Shown in pieces: positions 41,707 through 50,680 of a DNA stretch of 64,000 nucleotides. Numbering within the stretch: the first letter of the stretch is position 1; every line of letters begins with the position of its first letter. The translations under genes were made by a program, and so were the position numbers. This DNA is from Streptomyces sp. AM 4-1-1 (GTDB lineage: Bacteria; Actinomycetota; Actinomycetes; Streptomycetales; Streptomycetaceae): assembly GCF_029167625.1 (NCBI RefSeq), contig NZ_CP119145.1, positions 5,766,001-5,830,000 of the forward strand, in the 5' to 3' direction. Under the pieces are notes generated by a model, which worked only from the letters and a program-made list of their open reading frames with translations, was not told where the DNA came from and did not search any database.

Positions 41707-43839
41707 GTGACCGCCGATACGTCCGTGCCGTCCACTGCGCTGCTGACCGGAGCAGGGGGCGTCGTAGACAAGGACAGCTCCAACTACACCGCGCGGCACC
41801 TGCTCGTCCTGGAGGGGCTGGAGGCGGTGCGCAAGCGCCCCGGGATGTACATCGGGTCCACGGACAGCCGGGGCCTGATGCACTGCCTCTGGGAGATCAT
41901 CGACAACTCCGTCGACGAGGCCCTCGGTGGCTACTGCGACCACATCGAGGTCATCCTGTACGAGGACGGCTCCGTCGAGGTGCGGGACAACGGCCGGGGC
42001 ATCCCGGTCGACGTCGAACCGAAGACCGGGCTCTCCGGCATCGAGGTCGTGATGACCAAGCTGCACGCGGGAGGCAAGTTCGGCGGCGGGTCGTACGCGG
42101 CCTCCGGCGGTCTGCACGGGGTCGGTGCCTCCGTCGTGAACGCCCTGTCGGCACGCCTCGACGTCGAGGTCGACCGGAACAGCGCCACCCACTCGATCAG
42201 CTTCCGCCGTGGCGTTCCGGGCTTCTTCACCGAGCAGGGGCCGGACAGTCCGTTCGACCCGGCCAACGGGCTGCACAAGGGCAAGCGGGTGCCGAAGAAC
42301 CGGACCGGCACCCGGGTGCGCTACTGGGCCGACCGGCAGATCTTCCTCAAGGACGCCAAGCTCAACCTGGAGAACCTGTACCAACGGGCCCGCCAGACGG
42401 CGTTCCTCGTCCCCGGCCTCACCATCGTCGTGCGCGACGAGCGGGAGGCCGACGGCGAGGGCAGGACGGTGGAGACGTTCCGTTTCGACGGCGGGATCAG
42501 CGAGTTCTGCGAGTACCTGGCCCAGGACAAGGCGGTCTGCGACGTCCTGCGGCTGACCGGACAGGGGGTCTTCAAGGAGACGGTGCCGGTCCTGGACGAG
42601 CGCGGCCACATGACGGCCACCGAGGTGACCCGTGAGCTCGGGGTCGACATCGCGATGCGCTGGGGCACCGGGTACGAGACCAACGTCAAGTCGTTCGTCA
42701 ACATCATCGCCACCCCCAAGGGCGGCACACATGTGAGCGGTTTCGAACGCTCCGTGACCAGGACGGTCAACGAGGTCCTGCGCTCCGCCAAGCTGCTGCG
42801 GGTCGCCGAGGACGACATCGTCAAGGACGACGCCCTGGAAGGGCTCACCGCCGTCGTCACCGTCCGGCTGGCCGAGCCCCAGTTCGAGGGGCAGACCAAG
42901 GAAGTGCTCGGCACCTCCGCGGCCAACCGGATCGTCGCCCATGTGGTCGCCAAGGAACTCAAGGCGTTCCTGACCTCCACCAAGCGGGACGCGAAGGCGC
43001 AGGCCAGGTCGGTGCTGGAGAAGGCGGTCGCCGCCGCCCGTACCCGGATCGCGGCCCGTCAGCACAAGGACGCGCAGCGACGCAAGACCGCGCTGGAGTC
43101 CTCCTCGCTCCCGGCCAAGCTGGCCGACTGCCGCAGCGACGACGTGGACCGCAGCGAGCTCTTCATCGTCGAGGGGGACTCCGCGCTCGGCACGGCGAAG
43201 CTCGCCCGCAACAGCGAGTTCCAGGCGTTGCTGCCCATCCGGGGCAAGATCCTCAACGTCCAGAAGTCGTCCGTCTCGGACATGCTCAAGAACGCCGAGT
43301 GCGGCGCCATCATCCAGGTGATAGGAGCGGGTTCCGGCCGGACGTTCGACATCGACGCGGCTCGCTACGGCAAGATCGTCCTGCTCGTGGACGCCGATGT
43401 GGACGGCGCCCACATCCGCTGTCTGCTGCTGACGCTGTTCCAGCGCTACATGCGGCCCATGGTCGAGGCCGGCCGGGTCTTCGCCGCGGTGCCGCCGCTG
43501 CACCGGATCGAGCTGGTCCAGCCCAAGAAGGGCCAGGACAAGTACATCTACACCTACTCGGACAACGAGCTGCGCCAGCGGCTGCTCGGCCTCCAGCGCA
43601 AGAACATCCGGTACAAGGACTCGATCCAGCGCTACAAGGGTCTCGGTGAGATGGACGCCGACCAGTTGGCGGAGACCACGATGGATCCGAGGCACCGGAC
43701 GCTGCGCCGGATCAACATCGGCGACCTGGAGTCCTCCGAGCAGATCTTCGATCTCCTGATGGGTAACGAGGTCGCTCCTCGCAAGGAGTTCATCACCAGC
43801 TCGGCGGCCACACTGGACCGCTCGCGCATCGACGCCTGA
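41707..43839 (+). CDS. parE: DNA topoisomerase IV subunit B (ParE)
   Basis: The 710-residue ATPase subunit of topoisomerase IV, which unlinks replicated chromosomes. The GHKL ATPase has IIDNSVDEALGG, VRDNGRGIPVD, and ASGGLHGVGASVVNALS. The TOPRIM domain carries the acidic residues of EGDSALG and LLVDADVDGAHIR. The C-terminal YKGLGEMDADQL is conserved. The lack of the long gyrase B insertions and the split arrangement with parC further right favour ParE over GyrB. A second GyrB is expected elsewhere in the genome. GTG 41707 has GAGGAGCG at 41693-41700. A terminator follows the stop codon. Confidence 0.92.
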   Translation: MTADTSVPSTALLTGAGGVVDKDSSNYTARHLLVLEGLEAVRKRPGMYIGSTDSRGLMHCLWEIIDNSVDEALGGYCDHIEVILYEDGSVEVRDNGRGIPVDVEPKTGLSGIEVVMTKLHAGGKFGGGSYAASGGLHGVGASVVNALSARLDVEVDRNSATHSISFRRGVPGFFTEQGPDSPFDPANGLHKGKRVPKNRTGTRVRYWADRQIFLKDAKLNLENLYQRARQTAFLVPGLTIVVRDEREADGEGRTVETFRFDGGISEFCEYLAQDKAVCDVLRLTGQGVFKETVPVLDERGHMTATEVTRELGVDIAMRWGTGYETNVKSFVNIIATPKGGTHVSGFERSVTRTVNEVLRSAKLLRVAEDDIVKDDALEGLTAVVTVRLAEPQFEGQTKEVLGTSAANRIVAHVVAKELKAFLTSTKRDAKAQARSVLEKAVAAARTRIAARQHKDAQRRKTALESSSLPAKLADCRSDDVDRSELFIVEGDSALGTAKLARNSEFQALLPIRGKILNVQKSSVSDMLKNAECGAIIQVIGAGSGRTFDIDAARYGKIVLLVDADVDGAHIRCLLLTLFQRYMRPMVEAGRVFAAVPPLHRIELVQPKKGQDKYIYTYSDNELRQRLLGLQRKNIRYKDSIQRYKGLGEMDADQLAETTMDPRHRTLRRINIGDLESSEQIFDLLMGNEVAPRKEFITSSAATLDRSRIDA

Positions 43840-44028: not shown

Positions 44029-45333
44029 TCACGGAGCGGGTCCGGGCAGCGGCTGGGGCGGCCGGGGCCCCTCGTAACGGCCACTGGGGCGCATGCGCAG
44101 CGGCCGTTCCGCGTACTCCTCCAGTGCGTGTGCGATCCAGCCCGCCGTACGGGCCACCGCGAACACCGTTTCCCCCGCCTCCGCGGGCATGCGGGCGGAC
44201 ACCGAGAGTACGGCGAGCGCGAGATCGACATTGGCGTGCAGCGGGACGTGGCGGGCGGTCGTGGTGACCACGTCACGGGCGGCCTCCAGGGCGGACGCGG
44301 CCCACGGCACCCGCGCGAGCAGGTCGAACAGTGTCCGGGCGCGCGGGTCCTCACCCGTGTAGAGACGGTGGCCGAGTCCGGGCACCCCGCGTCCCGCGCG
44401 CAGATGGTCCGACACCACGGGAGCGGCGCCGCCCCGTTCCAGCACCTCGGCCAGCATCCGGTGCGCCAGGCCGCTCGCCGCGCCGTGCAGCGGCCCCTCC
44501 AGCACTCCGAGGCCCGCCGAGACCACGGCGTACGGATGGGCGCGGGCGGACGCGGCGAACCGGGCGGCCAGGGTCGACGCGGCCAGATCGTGGTCGATCA
44601 GCAGGGCAAGTGCCGTGTCCAGCACGGCGAGCGAGGCGTCGTCGGCCGGACGCGCGGTGAGGCTCGACCAGAGCCGACGGGCGGACCCGCCACCGCCGTC
44701 CCCACCGCCGCGGTCCCCGTCGTCGTCCGGGCCCCCGCCCGGCCCCTCGGCCGACAGGGCGCCGACCAGCGTCGGGATCAGGTTCCGCGCGCCCGCGAGC
44801 ACCGCGCCGGGCGAGAGGTCGAAGCGCAGCGGATCGGCTGCCGCCGCAGCGACGACCGCCACCCGCAGCCGGTCCGTGGAGCCGCTGTGCGCGGGCAGCG
44901 CGCCGACCGCTCGCCGTGCGGCGTCCAGTGCCTCGGCCGGCGCGGTGAAGCGGATGCCCGGCCGCAGTTCGCCGGTCCACAGCCACTCGGCGACCTCCTC
45001 GTAGCTGTGCCGGCGGGCCAGTTCGGTGGCGTCGACGCCCCGGAAGTAGTAGCGGTCGCCTTCGACGAGTGTGATCGCGGTACGGAAGACCAGGTCACCG
45101 GCGGCCGGGGAGGGCTCTCTGCGCCCCGTACGCCTGGCCAGCGCGTCCACCTCGGCGGCGTCGAACGTGCTGCCGCGCCCCCCTGGCGCCCGCTCACTGC
45201 TCAACTGGCCACGGCTGACGTACGCGTAGACCGTTTCCGGTTTCACCCCCAACCGCTCGGCCGTCTCCCGGGTGGTGAGCCGACGGGCCACCGGTGGGCC
45301 GCTGTCGCCGCCACTTCTCTCTTGATCCGTCAC
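44029..45333 (-). CDS. Helix-turn-helix/citrate synthase fusion protein
   Basis: A 434-residue protein from GTG 45333. Residues ~16-68 form a MerR/excisionase-like helix-turn-helix: RLTTRETAERLGVKPETVYA, then YVSRGQLSSERAPGGRGSTF. The rest is a citrate synthase fold. Active-site positions are His283 in GPLHGAAS, His322 in GLGHRLYTGEDPR and Asp370 in ANVDLAL, all retained. A Gly/Asp-rich insertion (DDDGDRGGGDGGGG) sits near residues 195-215. It is divergent from a second citrate synthase gene across a perfect palindrome. A role as a DNA-binding regulator sensing a citrate synthase substrate is inference; it may also be an enzyme. Confidence 0.87.
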   Translation of the reverse strand: MTDQERSGGDSGPPVARRLTTRETAERLGVKPETVYAYVSRGQLSSERAPGGRGSTFDAAEVDALARRTGRREPSPAAGDLVFRTAITLVEGDRYYFRGVDATELARRHSYEEVAEWLWTGELRPGIRFTAPAEALDAARRAVGALPAHSGSTDRLRVAVVAAAAADPLRFDLSPGAVLAGARNLIPTLVGALSAEGPGGGPDDDGDRGGGDGGGGSARRLWSSLTARPADDASLAVLDTALALLIDHDLAASTLAARFAASARAHPYAVVSAGLGVLEGPLHGAASGLAHRMLAEVLERGGAAPVVSDHLRAGRGVPGLGHRLYTGEDPRARTLFDLLARVPWAASALEAARDVVTTTARHVPLHANVDLALAVLSVSARMPAEAGETVFAVARTAGWIAHALEEYAERPLRMRPSGRYEGPRPPQPLPGPAP

Positions 45334-45350
45334 GCTGCCTCACAGTACAC

Positions 45351-45369
45351 ATATTGATTCAATCAATAT
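45351..45369. promoter_or_regulatory. Perfect 19-bp palindrome between the divergent citrate synthase genes
   Basis: ATATTGATT C AATCAATAT: two perfect 9-bp arms around one base, AT-rich in a very GC-rich region. A consensus -35 TTGACA (45369-45374) for the rightward gene starts at its last base. It lies 18 bp before the start of the HTH-citrate synthase gene. It is a likely operator for both genes. Confidence 0.75.
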
Positions 45370-45375
45370 TGACAA

Positions 45376-45389
45376 GGTTGGAGTCAACC
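45376..45389 (+). promoter_or_regulatory. Second short inverted repeat in the citrate synthase promoter region
   Basis: GGTTG GAGT CAACC: 5-bp arms within the spacer downstream of the TTGACA hexamer. It may be a second half of the control region or chance. Confidence 0.35.
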
Positions 45390-45455
45390 ATGGATGGTCG
45401 AATCAAGTTACGGATGAACCGCGAACGATCCTCGGAACGACCCCTGGAGGGCGAC

Positions 45456-46634
45456 ATGGCCACCATCGGCGACACCGGAGCCACCGGCGTCAGGAACCCG
45501 CTCGACGTACCTCGCGGCCTGGCCGGGGTGGTCGTCACCGACACCGCTCTCGGAGACGTCCGGGGGCGCGAAGGGTTCTACCACTACCGGCAGTTCTCGG
45601 CCCTCGAGCTCGCGCGGACCCGCTCCTTCGAGGACGTCTGGTACCTGATGTTCCACGGTGAGCTGCCCGACCGGGGCGCCCGCGACGGGTTCGCCGCCCG
45701 CGTCGCGCCCCTGCGTCACCTGCCCGAGGAAGTGCGGGAGGCGCTGCCCGCGATAGCGCGGTCAGGCTCCGTCTCCGGCCCGCTCGCCGGACTGCGTACC
45801 ACCCTCTCGCTGCTCGGGGCCACGGCCGGCCTCCGGCCCGTCTACGACATCGACGCCGGACAGCGCCGGGAGGACGCCCTCGCCCTCTGCGCGGCCGTAC
45901 CCACCGCGCTCACCGCACTGCACCGGCTGAGCCAGGGGCTGGAGCCCGTCGAACCGCGTGACGACCTTCCGTACGCGGCCAACTACCTCCACATGCTGAC
46001 CGGAAGCGCGCCGGACGCCGAGCGGACCCGGGCCGTCGAGCGCTATCTCGTGTCCACGATCGACCACGGCTTCAACGCCTCCACGTTCACCGCCCGCGTC
46101 GTGGCCTCCACCGGCGCCGATGTCGCCGCCTGCCTGGTCGCCGCGATCGGCGCGCTCTCCGGGCCGCTGCACGGCGGAGCGCCGAGCCGGGCCCTGGACA
46201 CCCTGGACGCGATCGGGACCCCGGACCGGATCGACGGCTGGATTCGTGACCGGGTGCTCGCCGGGGAGCGGATCATGGGCTTCGGACACCCTGTCTACCG
46301 CACCGAGGACCCTCGCTCCCGGATGCTGCGGGACATCGCGCGGGGCTTCGGCGGCCCGCTCGTCGACCTCGCGGTCGAGGTCGAGCGACAGGTGGAGACG
46401 ATCCTCGCCGAGCTGAAACCCGGCCGCGAACTGCACACCAACGTCGAGTTCTACGCGGGCGTCGTCATGGAGCTGTGCGGGCTGCCGCGCACCATGTTCA
46501 CGCCGACCTTCTGCGCGGCGCGGGTGGTCGGCTGGAGCGCCAATATCCTGGAGCAGGCGGAGGACTCGAAGATCATCCGTCCGGCGGCGCGCTATGTCGG
46601 CGCACCCCCGCCGCAGCCCGTCCCGGCGCTCTGA
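45456..46634 (+). CDS. Citrate synthase family protein
   Basis: A 392-residue citrate synthase-fold protein, which condenses oxaloacetate with acetyl-CoA or a relative such as propionyl-CoA. The two catalytic His are His239 (GPLHGGAP) and His278 (GFGHPVYRTEDPR). The residue corresponding to the catalytic Asp of the classical enzyme is Glu331 (TNVEFYAGVV). Oxaloacetate-binding Arg candidates are present in the C-terminal part. ATG 45456 has GGAGG at 45446-45450. The COG0523 gene starts 21 nt after the stop, so the two are probably one operon. Methylcitrate or other specificity cannot be excluded. Confidence 0.88.
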   Translation: MATIGDTGATGVRNPLDVPRGLAGVVVTDTALGDVRGREGFYHYRQFSALELARTRSFEDVWYLMFHGELPDRGARDGFAARVAPLRHLPEEVREALPAIARSGSVSGPLAGLRTTLSLLGATAGLRPVYDIDAGQRREDALALCAAVPTALTALHRLSQGLEPVEPRDDLPYAANYLHMLTGSAPDAERTRAVERYLVSTIDHGFNASTFTARVVASTGADVAACLVAAIGALSGPLHGGAPSRALDTLDAIGTPDRIDGWIRDRVLAGERIMGFGHPVYRTEDPRSRMLRDIARGFGGPLVDLAVEVERQVETILAELKPGRELHTNVEFYAGVVMELCGLPRTMFTPTFCAARVVGWSANILEQAEDSKIIRPAARYVGAPPPQPVPAL

Positions 46635-46655: not shown

Positions 46656-47819
46656 TTGTCCTCGTCGATCACGCCGCCCCGCAAGCAGATCCCGGTCATC
46701 GTCCTCGCGGGCTTCCTGGGCTCCGGGAAGACCACGCTGCTCAACCACCTGCTGAGGCACCGGGCGGGCAACCGGATCGGTGTGATCGTCAATGACTTCG
46801 GGGCCATCAAGATCGACGCGATGACGGTCTCCGGACAGGTCGGCTCGACCGTGTCGCTCGGCAACGGCTGTCTGTGCTGCGCCGTCGACGCGAGCGAACT
46901 CGACACCTTCCTGGGGAAACTGACCGGCCCGGCCGCTCGCCTCGACGTGATCGTCATCGAGGCGAGCGGCCTCGCCGAGCCCCAGGAACTCGTGCGCATG
47001 CTCCTGGCCAGCGACGATCCGCACATCGTGTACGGGGGACTGGTGGAAGTCGTCGACGCGGCGGAGTTCGGGCGCACCCGGCGGCGCCACCCCGAGATCG
47101 ACCGCCATCTCGCCGTCGCCGACCTCGTGGTGCTCAACAAGACGGACCGGATCGACGAGGCGGAGGAGGACCGGCTACGGTCCCTCGTCGAGGCGATGGG
47201 CAGCGGGGCGGCCGTCATCTCCGCGACCCACGGCCGGATCGATCCGGAACTCCTCTTCGATCCCGCCCACCGGCCGGATGCCGACGAGAAGGTCCGTCAG
47301 CTCACCTTCGAGGATCTGCTCCAGGCGGAGCGCGAGCACGAGCGGGAGCGCGAGCGGGAGCGGGCGAGCGACGGGCAGTCGGGTGGCGGGCACGGGCACC
47401 ATCCGCACGCGGCGTACGAGAGCGTCGCGTTCACCGCCGACGTACCGATGAGTCCCCGCCGTTTCATGGCCTTCCTGGACTCCCGGCCCGAGGGTCTGTA
47501 CCGGATCAAGGGATTCGTGGACTTCGGCCCCGGCGATCCCCGGCACAGCTACGCCCTGCACGCGGTCGGCAGATTCCTCCGGTTCGTCCCGCAGCCGTGG
47601 GCACGGGACGAACCCCGCCTCACCCAGCTGGTGCTGATCGGTACCGGCCTGGACGCGCCCGCGCTCTCCGCGCGGCTCGCCGACTGCCGGGAGAGCGGTA
47701 CGTCCTCGTCGGGCGCCCCTCGGAGCATCCCGCAGGACATCCCGCAGGACGCCGACGCTCTGGAACAGAGCATGTGGGGCGTCCTGCGGTACGTACAACA
47801 GCCTGACGACGAGGCGTAG
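46656..47819 (+). CDS. CobW/COG0523 family GTPase, putative metal chaperone
   Basis: A 387-residue G3E GTPase. The P-loop is GFLGSGKTTLLN near the N-terminus; the metal-binding CLCC motif follows in GNGCLCCAVD. EASGLAEP, NKTDRID and the C-terminal CobW_C domain (ESVAFTADVPMSPRRFMAFL onward) complete it. An insertion rich in Glu/Arg (EREHERERERERER) and His (GGGHGHHPHAAYE) lies near 227-252, typical of zinc chaperones. The start is TTG 46656 with GGAGAAAGG upstream. Members deliver zinc or cobalt to client proteins. Coupling with a citrate synthase gene is unusual; the client is unknown. Confidence 0.87.
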   Translation: MSSSITPPRKQIPVIVLAGFLGSGKTTLLNHLLRHRAGNRIGVIVNDFGAIKIDAMTVSGQVGSTVSLGNGCLCCAVDASELDTFLGKLTGPAARLDVIVIEASGLAEPQELVRMLLASDDPHIVYGGLVEVVDAAEFGRTRRRHPEIDRHLAVADLVVLNKTDRIDEAEEDRLRSLVEAMGSGAAVISATHGRIDPELLFDPAHRPDADEKVRQLTFEDLLQAEREHERERERERASDGQSGGGHGHHPHAAYESVAFTADVPMSPRRFMAFLDSRPEGLYRIKGFVDFGPGDPRHSYALHAVGRFLRFVPQPWARDEPRLTQLVLIGTGLDAPALSARLADCRESGTSSSGAPRSIPQDIPQDADALEQSMWGVLRYVQQPDDEA

Positions 47820-48014: not shown

Positions 48015-50465
48015 CTACACCGGTCCCGCGATCACCGCGACCGGCTTCGCCAGCGGTACGCCCGAGCCGTCGCGCCTCGGGTCCAGCTCGGGCAGATCCG
48101 TCGGCGTGCCGTTCTTCTGCGCGGCCCGTGCCGGCGTCTCACCCGCCCAGGCGAACACCAGGACGTCCTCGCCCTTCAGGAAGCGCTGGCAGCGCACACC
48201 CCCCGTGGCCCGGCCCTTGCGCGGATACTGGTCGAACGGCGTCAGCTTCGCCGTCACGGCGGAGTCGTCCAGGGTGCCGTGCGACCCCGCGACCGTGAAC
48301 ACCAGCGCGTCGGCGGCCGGGTCCACCGCGGTGAACGCCAGCACCTCGGCCCCGGCCGTGAGCTTGACCCCCGCCATGCCGCCCGCGGGACGGCCCTGCG
48401 GACGCACCTGCGCCGCCGGGTAACGCAGCAACTGCGCGTCGGAGGTGATGAAGACCAGATCCTCCTCGCCCGTGCGCAGTTCGACGGCGCCCACGATCCG
48501 GTCACCGTCCTTCAGGCCGATGACCTCCAGCTCCTCCTTGTTCGCCGGGTAGTCGGGCACCACCCGCTTGACGACGCCCTGGAGAGTGCCGATCGCCAGT
48601 CCCGGTGACGCCTCGTCGAGCGTGGTGAGGCAGATCAGCTCCTCGTCGGGCTCCAGCGTGAGGAATTCACCGATCGGAGCGCCACCGGAGAGGTTCGGCG
48701 CCGCGTGGGTGTCCGGCAGCTGGGGCAGATCGATCACCGAGATCCGCAGCAGCCGGCCGGTGGAGGTCACCGCGCCGACATCGCCGCGGGCCGTCGCCGG
48801 GACGGCCGAGACGATCACATCGTGCTTGGCGCGCTTCGCGTCCTCCCCGGAGACGACCGGGTCGGCGTTGGCCGTGCGCGCCAGCAGACCCGTCGAGGAG
48901 AGCAGCACCCGGCACGGGTCGTCCGCGACCTCCAGCGGCACCGAGGCGACCTGCGAACCCGCCGACTCCAGCAGCACCGTGCGCCGTTCGGTGCCGAACT
49001 TCTTCGCGACCGCGGCCAGTTCGGCGGAGACCAGCTTGCGCAGCTCGGAGTCCGACTCCAGGATGCCGGTCAGCTCGTCGATCTCCCCGTTGAGCCGGTC
49101 CCGCTCGCTCTCCAGCTCGATCCGGTCGAACCGGGTGAGCCGCCGCAGCGGTGTGTCCAGGATGTACTGGGTCTGGACCTCGCTCAGCGAGAAGTGCTCG
49201 ATCAGCCGCTCCTTCGCCTGCGCCGAGTTGTCACTGGACCGGATGAGCCGGATGACCTCGTCGATGTCGATCAGCGCGACGAGCAGACCCTCGACCAGGT
49301 GCAGCCGGTCCCGGCGCTTGGTACGGCGGAACTCGCTGCGCCGCCGCACCACTTCGAAGCGGTGGTCGAGGTAGACCTCCAGCAGCTCCTTCAGACCCAG
49401 CGTGAGCGGCTGTCCGTCGACCAGCGCCACGTTGTTGATGCCGAAGGACTCCTCCATCGGCGTCAGTTTGTAGAGCTGTTCCAGCACGGCCTCGGGCACG
49501 AAGCCGTTCTTGACCTCGACGACCAGACGCAGACCGTGCGCGCGGTCGGTGAGGTCCTTGACGTCCGCGATGCCCTGGAGCTTCTTCGCCGAGACCAGAT
49601 CCTTGATCTTGGCGATCACCTTCTCCGGGCCGACCGTGAACGGCAGTTCGGTGACGACCAGGCCCTTGCGGCGCGGAGTGACGTTCTCCACGGCGACGGT
49701 CGCGCGGATCTTGAACGTCCCGCGGCCCTTCGCGTACGCGTCCTTGATGCCGGTGAGTCCCACGATCCGGCCGCCGGTCGGCAGGTCCGGACCGGGGACG
49801 TAACGCATCAGCGTCTCCAGGTCCGCGCCCGGATGCCTGATCAGGTGGCGGGCCGCGGCGACGACCTCGCCCAGGTTGTGCGGCGGCATGTTGGTCGCCA
49901 TGCCGACCGCGATCCCGGACGCGCCGTTGACCAGGAGGTTCGGGTACGCCGCCGGAAGGACGAGCGGTTCCCGCTCCTGGCCGTCGTAGTTCGACTGGAA
50001 CCCGACGGTGTCCTCGTCGATCGACTCCGTCATCAGCGAGGTGGCGTCGGCCATGCGGCACTCGGTGTACCGCATGGCGGCGGGCGGGTCGTCGTTGCCG
50101 AGCGAGCCGAAGTTCCCGTGTCCGTCGACGAGGGGGAGCCGCATGGAGAACGGCTGCGCCATCCGCACCAGGGCGTCGTAGATCGACGCGTCGCCGTGCG
50201 GGTGCAGCTTGCCCATCACCTCGCCGACCACACGGGCGCACTTCACATAGCCGCGGTCGGGGCGCAGGCCCATCTCGTTCATCTGGTACACGATGCGGCG
50301 ATGCACCGGCTTCATGCCGTCGCGCGCGTCGGGCAGGGCCCGTGAGTAGATCACCGAGTACGCGTACTCGAGGAAGGAGCCCTGCATTTCGTCGACGACG
50401 TCGATGTCGAGGATCTTCTCCTCGAAGTCGTCCGGCGGCGGGGTCTTCGTGCTGCGGCGGGCCAT
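48015..50465 (-). CDS. parC: DNA topoisomerase IV subunit A (ParC)
   Basis: The 816-residue DNA-cleaving subunit partnering ParE. The catalytic Tyr133 lies in [44 protein letters not shown] and HNLGEVV.A are conserved. No GyrA-box (QRRGGKG) is visible at the start of the C-terminal beta-pinwheel, which supports ParC rather than GyrA. The quinolone-contact position equivalent to GyrA Ser83 is Ala93, with Asp97 retained. ATG 50465 has AAGGAG upstream on the minus strand. parE lies about 4.2 kb away on the other strand, separated by the citrate synthase and cobW genes. Confidence 0.92.
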
Positions 50466-50680
50466 CGCTGCTGCGACTCCTTCACAGATTCTGTTCGGGC
50501 AACCTCTGGTTCTGACGCCGACCATTGTGGACCGCCGCACTGACAACGCCGACCTCGACCCGTCCCAAGCGCTCTTTCCCGCGAACTTCCACGGGTACGG
50601 GAACTTCGCCAGGCCCCGGTGCGCTTGCTTACAGTGGCAGGTCTCGCATCACATCCAGTATCGCGATCGAAGGGACGTAC

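Follow-up and report, generated by a model that had tools for sequence, protein, structure and literature searches.

In the genome of Streptomyces sp. AM 4-1-1 (NCBI RefSeq assembly GCF_029167625.1), a stretch of 64,000 nucleotides (contig NZ_CP119145.1, positions 5,766,001 to 5,830,000; here called the window) contains two citrate synthase-like genes that diverge across ATATTGATTCAATCAATAT. The leftward gene encodes a helix-turn-helix (HTH) DNA-binding head joined to a citrate synthase domain and is referred to as the fusion; the rightward gene encodes a plain citrate synthase-like enzyme, the partner (Table 1). Comparative sequence analysis suggests that the fusion is a one-component transcriptional regulator with a citrate synthase-fold sensor, which most likely represses the divergent enzyme gene via a site between the two genes. 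We put the probability of this reading at about 0.77. The sensor domain appears to be a still complete citrate synthase, and the regulator is probably a repressor. As in one-component regulators, DNA-binding head and enzyme domain reside in one chain (Pfam, alignment and model), and a site at the gene's own or adjacent promoter is conserved along with the gene, as seen from counts in Streptomyces, from 69 further loci and from the fit of the site to a -35 box. The original prediction, made from the sequence of the window alone, had proposed an enzyme turned sensor that controls its neighbour. Regulation through the intergenic site is strongly supported by the comparative evidence, while the word "turned" calls for caution, since the catalytic positions checked are conserved.

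Domain architecture and active-site residues of the fusion

The leftward gene had been described as a MerR/excisionase-like HTH fused to citrate synthase, and profile searches bear this out. The head matches Pfam HTH_17 over residues 19-68 with 31.4 bits (cut-off 27); MerR_1 lies barely above its cut-off (21.9 versus 21.6) and MerR (PF00376) below it (24.4 versus 28.2). Residues 81-416 match Citrate_synt (PF00285) with 187.7 bits, covering positions 6-356 of the 357 in the profile. An AlphaFold2 model based on a 52-row alignment has a mean pLDDT of 90.8, with both head and enzyme domain well folded, a low-confidence linker near residues 70-80 and a second weak loop at about residues 203-211. 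Among PDB folds it comes closest to citrate and methylcitrate synthases, with a TM-score of about 0.65 by query length. Over the same 52 rows the recognition stretch TxYxYxSRG of the HTH shows no variation, residues L28, G29, T34, Y36, Y38, S40, R41 and G42 being invariant, and the head is kept from Streptomyces to Egicoccus. Searches for relatives yielded 5,179 proteins at E at most 1e-10 and 5,511 at E at most 1e-20, each among 7,997 candidates, totals that probably take in ordinary citrate synthases; most of the 120 relatives listed each time carry the HTH_17 or MerR Pfam. Databases mostly label the fusion "citrate synthase".

His283, His322 and Asp370 are found where the original prediction had placed them, and H248, R331, R395 and R415 complete the usual active site; we take these residues to be equivalent to those of pig-heart citrate synthase, positions having been carried over via alignments. 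In a set of 180 fusion-type sequences, at least two of which (L141 and L142) probably lack the HTH head, H248, H283, R331, D370, R395 and R415 are unchanged in all 180 and H322 is retained in 177. The altered catalytic residue belongs to the partner, not to the fusion: Glu331 stands where the fusion has Asp370, and among 162 partner sequences this position is Glu in 158, Asp in two and a gap in two (158 of 160 readable). Note that near-copies were left in both sets. An NVE motif with Glu also occurs in Bacillus subtilis CitA (citrate synthase 1, 2c6x; alignment). The fusion looks catalytically complete, the plain partner enzyme carries the Asp-to-Glu change, and with all catalytic and substrate-binding positions checked conserved, the fusion may still be an active enzyme. 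In a phylogenetic tree the fusion domains form one group and the partner domains another (98/95); two rows intended to represent the remaining citrate synthases of the genome were ignored, as their branches exceed 5 and they probably represent wrong frames.

Conservation of the intergenic site

A perfect palindrome between the two genes, touched by TTGACA, had been noted in the original prediction and was recovered as ATATTGATT-C-AATCAATAT, which overlaps TTGACA by a single base at position 45369. Perfect palindromes with arms of at least 8 bases give 24 matches in 64 kb, and this is the sole AT-rich one among the 12 listed. Conservation was examined at 110 Streptomyces loci, i.e., the 30 best of one relative search and the best 80 of another, a sample that favours close relatives and includes the window's own locus. 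Upstream of the fusion, the best match to ATTGATTNAATCAAT had no mismatch at 53 loci, one at 41, two at 11 and four at 5, while just two of 2,200 Markov-shuffled upstream regions reached two mismatches and none fewer. After removal of the five loci with four mismatches (L040 has a one-base insertion; in L033, L082, L090 and L094 the site is arranged differently) and of 18 of the remaining 105 that were over 85% alike, 87 non-redundant loci were aligned on the site. They carry at least 1 bit at all positions from -7 to +14 relative to its centre and, in a second block, from +22 to +46 except at +28. An interpretation of the second block as coding sequence was rejected: its frame relative to the partner is distributed 33/30/21 over 84 loci, and an ATG is present in 60 of the 84. 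The block holds two more TCAA elements and may be a site for the regulator MtrA or contain further half-sites.

The site is specific to genomes that carry both genes. The exact 21-base sequence TGTCAAYRTTGATTNAATCAA, which spans most of the palindrome, has 63 matches in 63 of 150 Streptomyces genomes, one per genome and once in the source genome, all on the fusion strand and 21-133 bp upstream of the start of homology to the fusion orthologue; a reversed control of the pattern has no match in the 150 genomes. With the fusion counted at E at most 1e-60 and the partner at E at most 1e-100, both genes are present in 93 genomes, the fusion only in four, the partner only in one and neither in 52 (the locus is broken in the draft genome G102, and in G137 the reading frame is split). 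The exact site occurs in 63/93, 0/4, 0/1 and 0/52 of these classes, respectively. The original prediction had tied its fate to the presence of the site beside orthologous gene pairs, and there it is found: at up to two mismatches, TGTCAAYRTTGATTNAATCAA has 98 matches, located in 90 of the 93 genomes with both genes and in none of the 57 others, compared with one match for the control pattern. Within 200 bp upstream of fusion homology lie 96 of the 98, some of them reverse readings of the same palindrome; the remaining two are a second copy in G032 and a match in G146 upstream of a gene for a CoA-transferase of family III. The latter (L194, G146:C19, positions 2547-2567, two mismatches) is the sole operator-like site away from the gene pair in the 150 genomes. 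Situated just upstream of the CoA-transferase gene, it is a possible extra target and a possible hint at the ligand.

Natural deletions point in the same direction. In G013, G107 and G110 the partner is lost, the fusion faces the gene for a CobW-type GTPase that otherwise follows the partner, and the site is gone (best score 11.9 of 19.2). In G027 the fusion is lost, the partner kept and the site again gone, such that the site is missing from all four genomes in which one of the two genes was cleanly lost. G144 has remnants of both genes only and no site. In G032 about 100 bp are duplicated (79% identical), with a perfect ATATTGATTGGATCAATAT at each of the two genes; in the fusion-side copy the partner's -35 box is changed (TTAACA) and the second block has decayed.

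A search of other actinobacterial genomes for co-conservation of the palindrome and both genes, as suggested in the original prediction, revealed that the site extends well beyond Streptomyces. At E at most 1e-33, a sample of 121 genomes from the family has matches to the fusion in 63, and one of 296 genomes from the phylum has them in 31; three of the weakest of the latter begin after the HTH head and probably represent ordinary citrate synthases. A sample of 296 genomes from the class has matches in 53 at E at most 1e-40. The three samples overlap. From these matches 69 further loci were drawn (L143-L182 and L198-L226), consisting of 20 of 24 matches from outside the genus, another 20 (19 of 46 from outside it and a single one from within) and 29 of 36 from outside. 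All except L180 are from outside Streptomyces, mostly from other genera and families. The pattern TTGAT-N(0-10)-ATCAA-NN-TTGA, sought within 260 bp upstream of the fusion, reached a score of 14 at 36 loci and of 13 at 19, so that 55 of the 69 attain at least 13 of 14; lower scores were 12 at six loci, 11 at five, 10 at two and 9 at one. Among 690 Markov shuffles a score of 12 was reached five times and 13 never, and 69 downstream controls reached 11 once. Outside Streptomyces the spacing between TTGAT and ATCAA varies, mostly being 3, 4, 6 or 7 bases, and ATCAANNTTGA fits with fixed spacing, which the scoring presets and whose constancy was judged by eye. The palindrome was therefore rejected as the conserved element itself. 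Across the phylum the element consists of ATCAAYRTTGA and a TTGAT arm set apart from it, and the palindrome is the form that it takes in Streptomyces. The recognition helix has an alanine as residue 39 (YAYASRG) at 12 loci (L163, L205, L206, L208-L212 and L223-L226), and all 12 have four bases between TTGAT and ATCAA. Most loci with Val39 have other spacings, and family f86 has four bases with Val. Co-variation of head and site at residue 39 is possible, confounded by relatedness.

The gene facing the fusion can be exchanged. At the 69 loci it is the adjacent partner in 55 cases, an HMGL-like gene of the nifV/homocitrate synthase type in five (L143, L144, L217, L218 and L219), a DUF2332 gene in five (L167-L170 and L173) and none of these in four (L154, L162, L221 and L222, the last cut by a contig end). 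Family scans were run on L144 and L167, and the other HMGL and DUF2332 genes were assigned by matching these two. The site scores at least 13 of 14 in four of the five HMGL and in all five DUF2332 cases. HMGL-type enzymes that make homocitrate or isopropylmalate also join an acyl-CoA to a 2-oxoacid, which hints that the circuit concerns a kind of reaction and not one gene family. Where a DUF2332 gene stands in for the citrate synthase partner, the operator lies over the -35 box predicted for that gene, which provides a functional lead for DUF2332. At L154, whose encoded protein shares 100% identity with an Egicoccus sp. AB-alg2 protein, an unrelated gene lies between fusion and partner, and the site, GTTGAC-GACGTC-ATCAACGTTGAC, is found at the partner, away from the fusion (by eye).

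Promoter fit, proposed mechanism and rival explanations

The relation of the site to promoters was assessed for the 54 of the 69 loci that score at least 13 in partner orientation. A NANNNT motif follows the TTGANN of the site after 17 (28 loci) or 18 bases (25 loci) in 53 of 54 cases, and each other spacer from 12 to 23 was found at 0-7 loci. The third half-site, i.e., the last TTGA, is thus very probably the -35 box of the divergent gene's promoter.

Citrate synthases are dimers, and for this reason the two HTH heads would be paired, held together by the dimeric citrate synthase domains while binding the intergenic site. The half-sites of the predicted operator would be RTTGAT, ATCAAY and RTTGAY, the last coinciding with the -35 box of the divergent enzyme's promoter. 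By occupying the -35 region the fusion would block RNA polymerase and repress the divergent enzyme, and it would probably repress its own promoter too. Oxaloacetate and/or an acyl-CoA (or the product) in the citrate synthase domain may elicit the open-to-closed movement and thereby alter the grip on DNA. Direct binding, repression and ligand are inferences; of the two possible signs, repression is the likelier, several target promoters being close to consensus.

A number of observations weigh against this interpretation. The retained catalytic residues are as compatible with an ordinary enzyme as with a sensor. The score stays below 13 at 14 of the 69 further loci, and in family f86 (L198-L204; scores 10-12) the site is altered, with ATCAAYATATC instead of ATCAAYRTTGA. 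Promoter geometry in this family also looks different. Within Streptomyces, G060, G105 and G136 exceed two mismatches, G060 and G105 retaining a variant (by eye). Given the relatedness of the genomes, the counts are not independent of one another. G012 and G095 retain the site at the fusion despite a partner split by rearrangement, which would mean autoregulation or a recent event; in both genomes (L186/L187 and L188/L189, respectively) the partner pieces are far apart, with the front piece still beside the fusion. On the fusion side NANNNT occurs at 17 or 18 bases at just 15 of the 54 loci, mainly in families f18 and f85, and autoregulation is less clear for this reason. Another regulator, MtrA, has been reported to act at the orthologous intergenic region, lowering both genes. 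A site overlapping the -35 box is suited to an activator too. Finally, the open-licence literature searched yielded neither a binding nor an expression experiment that treats the fusion as a regulator.

The alternative that survives best is that the same regulator acts through the same site and activates the partner. It has the opposite sign, overlaps the preferred reading and is in our view unlikely on balance. The centre of the site lies approximately 38-45 bp upstream of the expected transcript start, as with class II activators, and the Streptomyces -10 element (GACAGT) is poor, which favours an activator. On the other hand, the near-consensus target promoters of family f18 and some others (TTGATA-17-TACGAT, TTGACA-17-TAATCT) need no activator, and the site covers the -35 box itself.

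It is distinctly less probable that MtrA, GlnR or another protein owns the site and that the fusion is an enzyme whose HTH head is idle or otherwise used. According to PMC12323332, MtrA shifted a probe taken from between the two S. coelicolor genes, and at late time points the mtrA mutant expressed both of them at a higher level. GlnR controls citrate synthase genes in Saccharopolyspora erythraea, citA and one that shares the name citA4 with the predicted S. coelicolor orthologue of the partner (PMC10704036 and PMC6880422). However, the MtrA site predicted and reported for S. coelicolor, when reverse-complemented, agrees by eye with the second block at 13 of 16 bases and does not fit the operator. 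MtrA and GlnR are global regulators, whereas the operator is found roughly once per genome and only in the presence of the fusion, and it is missing in the sole genome that lost only the fusion (G027). Conservation of the HTH head from Streptomyces to Egicoccus argues against an idle head.

Somewhat more doubtful again is a mixed oligomer of fusion and partner, in which the partner would be enzyme and co-regulator and its altered catalytic Glu would reflect this. Streptomyces keep or lose the pair together (93 both, 52 neither and five one only), and Glu replaces the Asp of the fusion in nearly all readable partners. Fusion and site, however, persist beside HMGL-type or DUF2332 genes without an adjacent partner, and B. 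subtilis CitA has the same Glu, which shows that the change also occurs outside this pair. That two mere enzyme genes flank a chance or structural palindrome, in keeping with the database naming of the fusion, is hardly credible given conservation far above chance, the -35 fit and the co-loss.

Returning to the fusion as a citrate synthase-fold repressor, we tentatively extend the proposal to the whole phylum, at somewhat less than even odds: the family, so far unrecognised, may consist of bifunctional proteins, active citrate synthases and DNA-binding repressors at once, which would gauge their own substrates in a working active site and set the level of a second acyl-CoA condensing enzyme, with the target swappable between unrelated folds (citrate synthase or HMGL/homocitrate synthase) and sensor and operator retained. 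If the fusion is indeed a regulator, many proteins annotated as citrate synthase would be transcription factors, and actinobacteria, including antibiotic producers, would have a dedicated sensor at the entry to the TCA cycle, a point at which acetyl-CoA and oxaloacetate fluxes affect growth and polyketides. A central enzyme would have become a sensor without losing its active site, making the transition from enzyme to regulator directly testable.

Gene neighbourhood and comparison with known systems

Coordinates of the features discussed are collected in Table 1. As originally described, the rightward citrate synthase-like gene is followed by a metal chaperone gene, here a CobW-type GTPase gene. 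It is present at 74 of 80 named Streptomyces loci and at one of the 69 further loci, L180, itself a Streptomyces, and is part of the Streptomyces arrangement. The genome has four near-full-length matches to the citrate synthase family and one short match (profile positions 304-357) at G000:C1:4470526-4470687 (G000 being the source genome), inside a 234-aa frame. The gene pair is flanked in the window by 41707-43839 and 48015-50546, whose translations resemble type II topoisomerase subunits of the parE/parC type (by eye).

Table 1 Features of the fusion-partner region (positions in the window)
Feature	Position	Strand	Details and basis
Fusion gene, HTH_17/MerR-like DNA-binding head and citrate synthase domain	44029..45333	-	434 aa, GTG start; ORF, Pfam, predicted structure
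Citrate synthase domain, codons 81-416, with H248, H283, H322, R331, D370, R395, R415	44086..45093	-	Pfam, alignments, fold matches
HTH domain, codons 17-70	45124..45285	-	Pfam, alignment, predicted structure
Perfect palindrome ATATTGATT-C-AATCAATAT	45351..45369	.	Palindrome scan of the window
Conserved predicted operator, TTGATTNAATCAAYRTTGACA on the + strand	45354..45374	.	Comparative pattern searches
Predicted -35 box (TTGACA) of the partner promoter and third operator half-site	45369..45374	+	
Second conserved block, Streptomyces consensus AGTCAAGCATGGACAGTCGAATCAA, non-coding, overlapping the predicted -10	45382..45406	+	Aligned loci
GATGGT, predicted -10, 18 bp spacer; Streptomyces consensus GACAGT	45393..45398	+	Prediction
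Partner, citrate synthase-like enzyme, Glu331 at the catalytic Asp position	45456..46634	+	ATG 45456; Citrate_synt 362 bits
CobW-type GTPase gene (metal chaperone family), 3' of the partner	46656..47819	+	PF02492, PF07683

We infer that the fusion and partner genes are orthologues of S. coelicolor SCO5831 (citA3) and SCO5832 (citA4), respectively, which very probably form the orthologous pair. Like the genes in the window, the two share an intergenic region; MtrA binds there and regulates both in the same sense (PMC12323332). The passages of that paper devoted to them speak of two putative citrate synthases, with no HTH domain, operator or regulatory role of SCO5831. SCO5831 is more abundant under phosphate proficiency (PMC9739823, PMC8981147) and appears in an RNA-seq table (PMC7324645); where these four papers deal with SCO5831/5832, they name them only as citrate synthases. 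Among the matches listed in searches of the open-licence literature, no paper describes a regulator built from a DNA-binding head and a citrate synthase, nor one of this type that combines an intact active site with a widely conserved operator and interchangeable neighbours.

An enzyme fold as the sensor of a one-component regulator is of a kind already known. BzdR, as portrayed in the relevant parts of PMC3602430, has the same layout as the fusion, with an N-terminal DNA-binding head, a linker and an enzyme fold that binds the effector. Its HTH is joined to a shikimate kinase-like domain for which loss of enzyme activity is considered essential, whereas the fusion has another fold and keeps the catalytic residues checked. 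MocR/GabR regulators likewise combine an HTH of about 60 residues with an enzyme-like domain of about 350, and the group studied in PMC4944035 is present in Actinobacteria too; in contrast to the fusion, they use a GntR-type winged HTH and the fold of a PLP enzyme (aminotransferase). With the MerR family the fusion shares a head that matches MerR_1 marginally and HTH_17 clearly. MerR-type activators have their operator inside a 19-20 bp spacer between -35 and -10. Such spacer-remodelling geometry was not found at the 54 loci of the promoter test, where the site ends on the predicted -35 box, covering it, and the spacer has the ordinary 17 or 18 bp in all but one case. A further parallel, in gene arrangement, is B. 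subtilis citA with its divergent repressor gene citR: there, as here, a minor synthase of the CitA type with the NVE motif stands next to a divergent regulator, which is a LysR-type protein in B. subtilis, unlike the citrate synthase fusion described here.

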